64,000 nt of DNA from Streptomyces sp. NBC_01255 (GTDB lineage: Bacteria > Actinomycetota > Actinomycetes > Streptomycetales > Streptomycetaceae), in the NCBI RefSeq assembly GCF_036226445.1, contig NZ_CP108474.1, positions 4,092,001 through 4,156,000 on the forward strand, written 5' to 3'. The notes beneath the pieces are model-generated. The model had not been told where the DNA came from. It worked only from the letters and a program-made list of their open reading frames with translations, and made no database searches. Position numbers and translations under genes: made by a program. Shown here one piece after another: positions 63,379 through 64,000 of this stretch (positions are counted from its first letter, which is position 1; each line of letters opens with the position of its first letter).

Positions 63379-63726
63379 GTGGCTCAGCGTGTGGTGGTCA
63401 CTCTCTCCGATGACATCGACGGCGGAGAAGCTGCTGAGACGGTCGCGTTCGGCCTCGACGGGAAGACGTACGAGATCGACCTGAATGCTGCCAATGCAAA
63501 GAAACTCCGCAAGACCCTCGCCCCCTACCTCGCCGCCGGCCGCAAGCAGCCGGCCGGAGCGAAGGCCGGGACGAGGGAGCGGGCGGGCGTCGAGACCTAC
63601 ACCCGGACCGCGCTCGCGCCCGACCCGGCGGCGGTCCGCGCCTGGGCGCAGTCCAACAAGATGGACGTGCCCGCCAGGGGCCGCATCCCGAAGAAGGTCT
63701 ACGAGGCGTTCCACGCCGCGAGCTGA
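63379..63726 (+). CDS. lsrL: Lsr2-family nucleoid protein LsrL
   Basis: 115 residues. N-terminal dimerisation domain (MAQRVVVTLSDDIDGGEAAETVAFGLDGKTYEIDL) and C-terminal AT-hook-like DNA-binding domain with RGR in VPARGRIPKKVYEAF. Lsr2 silences AT-rich, often acquired, gene clusters; Streptomyces carries a second copy at this locus (SCO4076 by memory). GTG at 63379 follows AGGAAAGGACC. Confidence 0.93.
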   Translation: MAQRVVVTLSDDIDGGEAAETVAFGLDGKTYEIDLNAANAKKLRKTLAPYLAAGRKQPAGAKAGTRERAGVETYTRTALAPDPAAVRAWAQSNKMDVPARGRIPKKVYEAFHAAS

Positions 63727-63744: not shown

Positions 63745-63775
63745 TTGCATTCCACCCCCCATGATCCGCTAGAGT
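63745..63775 (+). promoter_or_regulatory. Putative promoter of tRNA-Gly(TCC)
   Basis: TTGCAT, a 19-bp spacer and TAGAGT, about 50 bases before the tRNA. Match is moderate. Confidence 0.5.
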
Positions 63776-63824: not shown

Positions 63825-63896
63825 GCGGGTGTAGTTCAGTAGTAGAACATCCCCCTTCCAGGGGGAAGGCGCAGTGTGCAATTCCTGTCACCCGCT
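63825..63896 (+). tRNA. Aberrant tRNA-Gly(TCC), candidate non-ribosomal glycine donor
   Basis: 72 nt. Acceptor GCGGGTG pairs fully with CACCCGC; D-stem GTTC/GAAC and anticodon stem TCCCC/GGGGA are intact, with anticodon TCC and U33. But the D-loop is AGTAGTA where AGTGGTA is normal, so G18 is A. The T-loop reads G-TGCAATT-C, so Psi55 is G; thus both partners of the G18-Psi55 elbow contact are replaced. The T-stem pairs only if a U is bulged (GCAG/CTGT, then G-C). It could be a pseudogene, but the acceptor and anticodon arms are perfect. Confidence 0.85.
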
Positions 63897-63975: not shown

Positions 63976-64000
63976 GCGGACGTGGCTCAGTTGGTAGAGC
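63976..64000 (+). tRNA. 5' part of a tRNA, probably tRNA-Gly, cut by window end
   Basis: GCGGACG acceptor, D-arm GCTC...GAGC with D-loop AGTTGGTA containing the normal GG. By similarity to Streptomyces tRNA-Gly(GCC); anticodon lies outside the window. Confidence 0.65.

Follow-up and report, generated by a model that had tools for sequence, protein, structure and literature searches.

How should a glycine tRNA gene be read in which G18 and U55, partners in the elbow contact between the D- and T-loops, are both replaced? The question is raised by a locus of Streptomyces sp. NBC_01255, in a stretch of 64,000 nucleotides (positions 4,092,001 to 4,156,000 of contig NZ_CP108474.1; hereafter the window). 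From the letters of this stretch, an earlier note had proposed that a tRNA-Gly(UCC) gene with a dismantled elbow might serve cell-wall synthesis rather than translation. We find that the variant tRNA is real, conserved and kept by strong selection, and sequence comparison makes a cell-wall role a plausible, and the leading, explanation of its existence.

The tRNA gene and its neighbors

The features of the locus are listed below; R1 denotes a covariance model built from 26 variant sequences.

63379..63726, plus strand: gene of an Lsr2-type nucleoid protein of 115 aa, upstream, used as locus marker (Pfam PF11774, PF23359)
63745..63750, plus strand: TTGCAT, conserved block resembling a −35 element, part of a putative promoter belonging to the tRNA gene itself (upstream alignment by eye)
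63770..63775, plus strand: TAGAGT, conserved −10-like hexamer, 49 nt 5' of the tRNA (upstream alignment by eye)
63825..63896, plus strand: variant tRNA-Gly(UCC) gene, 72 nt, no encoded CCA (Rfam RF00005, R1)
63841..63842, plus strand: A18 G19, with G18 replaced and G19 retained (sequence)
63857..63859, plus strand: anticodon UCC (sequence; the same in 49/49 distinct sequences)
63871..63888, plus strand: T-arm, with G49-U65, C50-G64, A51-U63, G52-C62, bulged U, G53-C61
63875..63875, plus strand: bulged U of the T-stem; every 72-nt sequence read has this extra base in the same position
63878..63878, plus strand: G55, replacing U55 (sequence)
63976..64000, plus strand: start of a canonical tRNA-Gly(GCC) gene that continues past the window (RF00005, G000:C1:4155976-4156048; ARAGORN)

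The RF00005 match covers exactly 63825-63896 on the plus strand at full length (53.5 bits, E 6.9e-10), and R1 gives the gene 102.7 bits, its own sequence being among the 26 used to build that model. ARAGORN made no call at 63825-63896 in the window; it calls the variant in certain relatives (e.g. L087, L089, L094, and L100) and makes no such call in others (L088, L091, L097, and L106). The normal-looking tRNA-Gly that the earlier note had placed next to the gene proved to be the canonical tRNA-Gly(GCC) beginning at 63976.

The acceptor stem (GCGGGUG/CACCCGC) and the anticodon stem (UCCCC/GGGGA) are perfectly paired, as had been noticed before, and the D-stem is fully paired. The D-loop AGUAGUA corresponds to A14 G15 U16 A18 G19 U20 A21 and the T-loop to U54 G55 C56 A57 A58 U59 U60, so the reported changes of G18 to A and of Psi55 to G are real. 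The T-arm reads GCAG-U-G UGCAAUU C-CUGU, five pairs and a single bulged U, and a five-pair T-stem does require that bulge, again in agreement with the first description. Among the features of a canonical elongator tRNA-Gly(UCC) (a G18-U55 and G19-C56 elbow and an unbroken T-stem), only G19-C56 is retained.

Conservation and compensatory substitutions

Conservation was assessed in 49 distinct 72-nt sequences, which are mostly best matches rather than a complete set from all genomes and leave out a 71-nt Actinacidiphila sequence (L102) and a decayed copy from Streptomyces philanthi. Positions 18 and 55 are A and G in 45 of the 49 sequences, and G and U in the remaining four (genus groups g7 and g10); mixed forms do not occur. 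Because this looks like a single coordinated switch on the tree, we count it as one event rather than 45. It is a natural coordinated switch of an elbow pair that is usually called universal. G19-C56, A51-U63, and the anticodon UCC are present in 49/49, and G49-U65 in 44/49, including the window gene, the other five having A49-U65; the 32-38 pair is C-G in 26/49 and U-A in 23/49. The contact between the loops had been described as lost on both sides. Positions 18 and 55 are indeed altered; however, G19-C56 is intact and 18 and 55 switch together: the elbow is re-specified rather than dismantled.

The search pattern that defined the 49 sequences itself demanded parts of the acceptor and D-stems, C2, A14, G15, and U73, and thus gives no evidence there; for these letters, 69 copies (34 distinct) were used instead. 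U73 and C2-G71 are found in 69/69 copies and G15-C48 in 68/69, and the 3' strand CCUGU (61-65) is invariant in 69/69. Besides U73, the glycine identity elements are C2-G71, C35, and C36; with UCC in 49/49, glycine identity is retained throughout. In L094, the bulged U lies one place earlier and five T-stem pairs remain possible.

Covariation was examined in 26 distinct sequences over all cloverleaf pairs and, in addition, 32-38 and 18-55. Both partners had changed in nine pairs: six of the anticodon stem, two of the acceptor stem, and one of the D-stem. Such double changes filled 47 cells; none of 500 shuffles scored as high (0/500), and every slid register gave far less. Further pair types, by contrast, fell below the shuffles (13 versus a mean of 14.6). 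The T-stem is nearly invariant and has no pair with a double change, and 24 of the 26 sequences have a non-standard combination at 18-55. The conservation search and stem test that the earlier note had called for thus return a counterpart in 181 of 181 Streptomyces genomes with compensated acceptor, D-, and anticodon stems. Neither of the outcomes it had named as fatal, occurrence in one strain only or random acceptor mutations, was seen, and its judgement that the gene is not decaying holds: the variant tRNA is almost surely functional.

Distribution in the Streptomycetaceae

BLAST detected the variant in all 25 Streptomyces genomes (g1) of a first sample, with the best copy at least 88% identical, in 28/28 g1 genomes of a family sample, and in 86 of the 121 genomes of that family sample as a whole (at least 81% identity). 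R1, which scored variants at 91 bits or more and canonical glycine tRNAs at 69 bits or less in 24 family genomes, added four genomes, two from g7 and two from g10, for a family total of 90/121; BLAST had missed four of the seven genomes in these two groups. In the order sample, all 181 Streptomyces genomes matched R1 with E values of 4e-22 or better, 174 of them with a single copy.

No variant was found in 31 of the 121 family genomes, namely, 27 of Kitasatospora (g19; e.g. Kitasatospora sp. DSM 101779, G084), three of a sister genus (g16), and one of Streptantibioticus (g21; Streptantibioticus parmotrematis is G067). Sixteen of these were checked with R1 (12 g19, three g16, and one g21); for the remaining 15, which belong without exception to g19, BLAST was the only search used. 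Further groups with named members are g12, Actinacidiphila (Actinacidiphila rubida, G090), and g8, Streptacidiphilus (Streptacidiphilus pinicola, G109).

Among 296 genomes of a class sample, R1 matched all 28 listed Streptomyces genomes; beyond Streptomyces, the matches listed were all 71 nt long and scored at most 76.2 bits, 176 of the 296 genomes had no match, and R1 would overlook deviant glycine tRNAs built differently. Similarly, 15 genomes of other families in the order sample reached only scores of the 71-nt type. A mobile origin was considered and rejected, the gene having no match at E 1e-5 in 50,697 phage and 72,556 plasmid records. In a neighboring family of the order (G025, L375 1492-1563), we observed a tRNA-Gly(UCC) with A50-U64 and A51-U63 in the T-stem, the anticodon loop CUUCCCG, an extra base between the T-stem and the acceptor strand, and a normal elbow (65.5 bits with R1).

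Of 34 named genomes chosen among the best 80 loci listed, 20 carry the variant at 98 bits or more, one is S. philanthi, and 13 lack a match at E 1e-15. The latter comprise six Kitasatospora, six genomes that bear the name Streptomyces but group within Kitasatospora on the FemX tree, and S. parmotrematis; the FemX of the window genome groups with named Streptomyces, on which ground g1 is equated with that genus. Two changes of variant presence suffice on this tree (39 rows, midpoint root as drawn), and since S. philanthi additionally carries a decayed copy, the pattern reads as three losses. The S. philanthi copy (L332, about 1501-1572; 80 bits) has a changed anticodon and a mismatched acceptor strand.

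In the Kitasatospora genome of locus L212, two tRNA-Gly(GCC) genes occupy the equivalent place beside lsr2 and a frame that by eye resembles PurS, and two adjacent GCC genes are likewise present in g16 (L212-L217 cover Kitasatospora and g16). The lost variant therefore seems to have been replaced by a GCC copy. In the single-contig Kitasatospora genome G112, the five best R1 matches are the canonical UCC, CCC, and three GCC genes, and no other deviant glycine tRNA was seen among about 25 of the 72 tRNA matches read. The type of diaminopimelate was rejected as the cause of loss: DL- and LL-A2pm are both reported for Kitasatospora and for Streptacidiphilus (PMC6113628), of which the latter carries the variant, whereas none was found in the former.

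Other tRNA genes of the genome

The 8.57-Mb genome contains 68 tRNA matches by RF00005, whose stretches were all read, and ARAGORN calls the 67 other than the variant. One of these is a canonical tRNA-Gly(UCC) at G000:C1:5751308-5751378 (RF00005, ARAGORN), which answers in the negative the question of whether the window holds the sole TCC gene; the window gene is, therefore, an extra, deviant UCC gene. It is additional to a full canonical glycine set of one UCC, one CCC, and three GCC genes, each of which has G49-U65 and G51-C63. The canonical UCC tRNA shares its acceptor stem, discriminator U73, and anticodon with the variant; it differs in G18-U55, G51-C63, five unbroken T-stem pairs, and C32/A38. 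A crude string test located UUCRA close to the 3' end in each of the 55 distinct ARAGORN sequences of the genome, and the variant is thus the only gene found in the genome without U55.

The same kind of crude test showed GG to be missing from the D-loop stretch in only one of the 55 sequences, the bldA tRNA-Leu(UUA) (L054 21-107, G000:C1:5232230-5232316), in which this stretch reads ATACGCAGAC. In 15 other sampled Streptomyces genomes (L343-L354, L356-L358), bldA likewise has no GG in the D-loop, with AATGCAGAC in 14 and AACGTAGAC in one; this D-loop type recurs in L355, from another family, and L359 and L360, from a third family, retain AGGCAGAC.

No glyS T-box that could read the variant was found in the genome. 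The one T-box match, on the minus strand at G000:C1:6481590-6481825 (L341), scores 66 bits against a cut-off of 93, and its flank, judged by eye in a shifted frame, resembles isoleucyl-tRNA synthetase. This candidate was rejected as sub-threshold with a flank that resembles ileS.

Comparison with staphylococcal cell-wall tRNA-Gly

Staphylococcus aureus has three glycine tRNAs with elements that weaken EF-Tu binding and that are thought to supply the pentaglycine bridge, as described in PMC4052509. The weak features that source names, after Giannouli et al. 2009, are A49-U65, A51-U63, and replacement of GG18-19; G49-U65 and G51-C63, by contrast, are strong for EF-Tu and are replaced in the S. 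aureus cell-wall tRNA-Gly (PMC4052509). The likeness to staphylococcal tRNA-Gly proposed by the earlier note is borne out to the extent that A51-U63, weak for EF-Tu in S. aureus (PMC4052509), takes the place of G51-C63 in the variant (49/49). Position 18 is changed in both systems, the variant is an extra glycine isoacceptor beside a proteinogenic set, a FemX-type glycyl transferase is encoded in the same cell, and U73 is retained, as it is in the S. aureus non-proteinogenic tRNA-Gly (PMC6097841).

In other respects the two systems differ. Staphylococci lose both G18 and G19 (UU or CU), whereas the variant has A18 with G19 in 49/49; they have A49-U65, whereas the window gene has G49-U65 and A49-U65 occurs in only 5/49. 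Unlike its staphylococcal counterparts, the variant T-arm has an extra, bulged base. A further likeness is that S. epidermidis counterparts carry the T-loop UGCA with G55. Because the variant belongs to a different phylum and is confined to one family in the samples searched, it probably evolved independently.

FemX and the proposed role

In Streptomyces peptidoglycan, FemX adds glycine to the LL-diaminopimelate of precursors. The genome encodes two FemAB proteins, L127 (FemX) and L128; the nearest PDB sequence to L127 is the 'Lipid II:glycine glycyltransferase' 6snr. S. coelicolor FemX is named among aminoacyl-tRNA-using enzymes, and how cells keep aminoacyl-tRNA out of translation and available for the wall is described as mostly unclear (PMC4052509).

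A FemX match was obtained in 120 of the 121 family genomes, the exception being a variant-bearing draft (G061), and in every one of the sampled family genomes that yielded no variant (31/31). In S. philanthi, FemX is free of stops over the 333 codons read, though the tRNA copy has decayed. FemX does not, therefore, strictly need the variant, which on present sequences would help FemX at most and is not required everywhere. The idea of a supplier dedicated to FemX is accordingly not borne out, given FemX in all 31 variant-less genomes and an acceptor stem that equals that of the canonical UCC tRNA. Linkage to femX was rejected, 171 kb separating the two genes.

What is conserved about the variant nevertheless suggests how it could act. 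We consider it to have close to an even chance of being a family-specific second tRNA-Gly(UCC) of the Streptomycetaceae, with elbow and T-arm re-made, that feeds a non-ribosomal glycyl transferase, likeliest FemX. GlyRS would charge it normally, its identity elements being intact; the altered T-stem and elbow would lower capture of the Gly-tRNA by EF-Tu; and the unsequestered Gly-tRNA would be available to the transferase, which, if it is FemX, would place the glycine on the LL-diaminopimelate of peptidoglycan precursors. In Weissella, the part of the tRNA that FemX reads is the acceptor arm (PMC4052509), and the acceptor stem and U73 of the variant equal those of the canonical UCC tRNA; we infer that specialization would arise through weaker EF-Tu capture rather than through a preference of FemX. 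If the variant serves FemX, EF-Tu avoidance is thus the likeliest route, and FemX is not expected to prefer it over the canonical UCC tRNA.

By analogy with the staphylococcal non-proteinogenic tRNA-Gly, A51-U63, the altered position 18, and the co-occurring FemX plausibly speak for a cell-wall role; retention of G19 and G49-U65, the normal acceptor stem, and FemX without the variant in relatives speak against it. More tentatively, the variant could represent a second, independently evolved lineage of cell-wall tRNAs, in Actinomycetota, in which the elbow was re-specified, the T-stem bulge fixed, and EF-Tu releases the tRNA, with Kitasatospora having lost the variant and running FemX on ordinary tRNA-Gly. 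That last condition, if true, offers a natural comparison. The variant is a duplicate tRNA shared by all sampled genomes of the best-studied genus of antibiotic producers, single-copy in 174/181, and without an ARAGORN call here; it permits a clean genetic test, deletion set against Kitasatospora, in which none was found. Within the literature searched, which subscription papers mostly fall outside, we found no report of the variant tRNA, and there it seems undescribed.

Alternative explanations

Among other readings, the one that survives best, although we think it unlikely, is an auxiliary translational tRNA that decodes GGA or GGG under some condition or growth stage, with A18-G55 as a neutral or tuned substitute. 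Speaking for it are the retained UCC anticodon (49/49), G19-C56 (49/49), and G15-C48 (68/69 copies), and joint change of positions 18 and 55 is expected if the elbow must still form. The bldA tRNA decodes UUA (PMC2000904) and, like the variant, is a special Streptomyces tRNA with a D-loop that has no GG; such a D-loop is therefore no proof of a non-translational role, although the bldA T-loop, unlike that of the variant, is canonical. Against this reading, the genome already has a canonical UCC gene, Kitasatospora manages without the variant, and A51-U63 plus an extra T-arm base occur in 49/49, whereas the genome's canonical glycine tRNAs all have G51-C63.

Less probable again is another consumer of Gly-tRNA, such as the second FemAB-like protein or an enzyme of aminoacyl lipid or natural product synthesis, or else a regulatory or stress tRNA or a source of tRNA-derived fragments. 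The genome does encode L128, and FemX alone fails to track the variant. Accessory biosynthetic enzymes, however, are patchy in distribution, whereas the variant is in every sampled Streptomyces genome, and for a regulatory role the genome's only T-box match is below cut-off with an isoleucyl-tRNA synthetase-like rather than a glyS flank.

We regard as improbable a tRNA with no canonical T-arm, in which G55 would allow pairing between the variable region and the T-loop (46-56, 48-55, 49-54, and 50-53 around AGU); the resulting mini-hairpin would take the place of the bulged T-stem or compete with it. Computed energies, which include no tertiary contacts, favor the hairpin over the bulged T-stem in 43 of the 45 A18/G55 sequences by 1.4 to 2.9 kcal/mol, and in L094, with the bulge in its own register, by 2.3 kcal/mol; they favor the T-stem in the two A18/G55 sequences that carry G48 and in each of the four G18/U55 sequences. 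However, the hairpin would leave unpaired the CCUGU (61-65) that is invariant in 69/69 copies, and L094 shifts its bulge yet can still form five T-stem pairs. The predictions are weak, neither form being probable in the ensemble for many sequences, and the same program does not predict the canonical UCC tRNA as a cloverleaf.

A decaying gene or pseudogene, which the odd elbow and bulge, the missing ARAGORN call, and the truly decayed S. philanthi copy might suggest, is very improbable given 181/181 Streptomyces genomes, substitutions that are conserved and compensated rather than the reverse, tandem copies in several species, and a conserved upstream block.

Upstream region and gene copies

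The −35-like block and the −10-like hexamer may together form a promoter of the variant gene's own. By eye, most genomes keep both elements upstream, the first as a TTGC- or TTGGACA-like block and the second as a TAGAGT-like hexamer; their conservation is weaker in g7, g8, and g10, and second tandem copies are not preceded by them. In S. coelicolor, the N-acetylglucosamine-linked regulator DasR binds at a tRNA-Gly upstream of SCO3679 and at glyS, and a cluster of the Glu/Asp/Phe type is placed at SCO4092 (PMC4398421). Because about 21 kb separate the variant gene from a Glu/Asp/Phe tRNA cluster of the SCO4092 type, the DasR-bound tRNA-Gly near SCO3679 is unlikely to be the variant gene.

In several Streptomyces the variant is repeated in tandem, with two to four copies; there are three in both S. 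hiroshimensis and S. klenkii, and four in Streptomyces sparsogenes (G587:C250:26162-26689).
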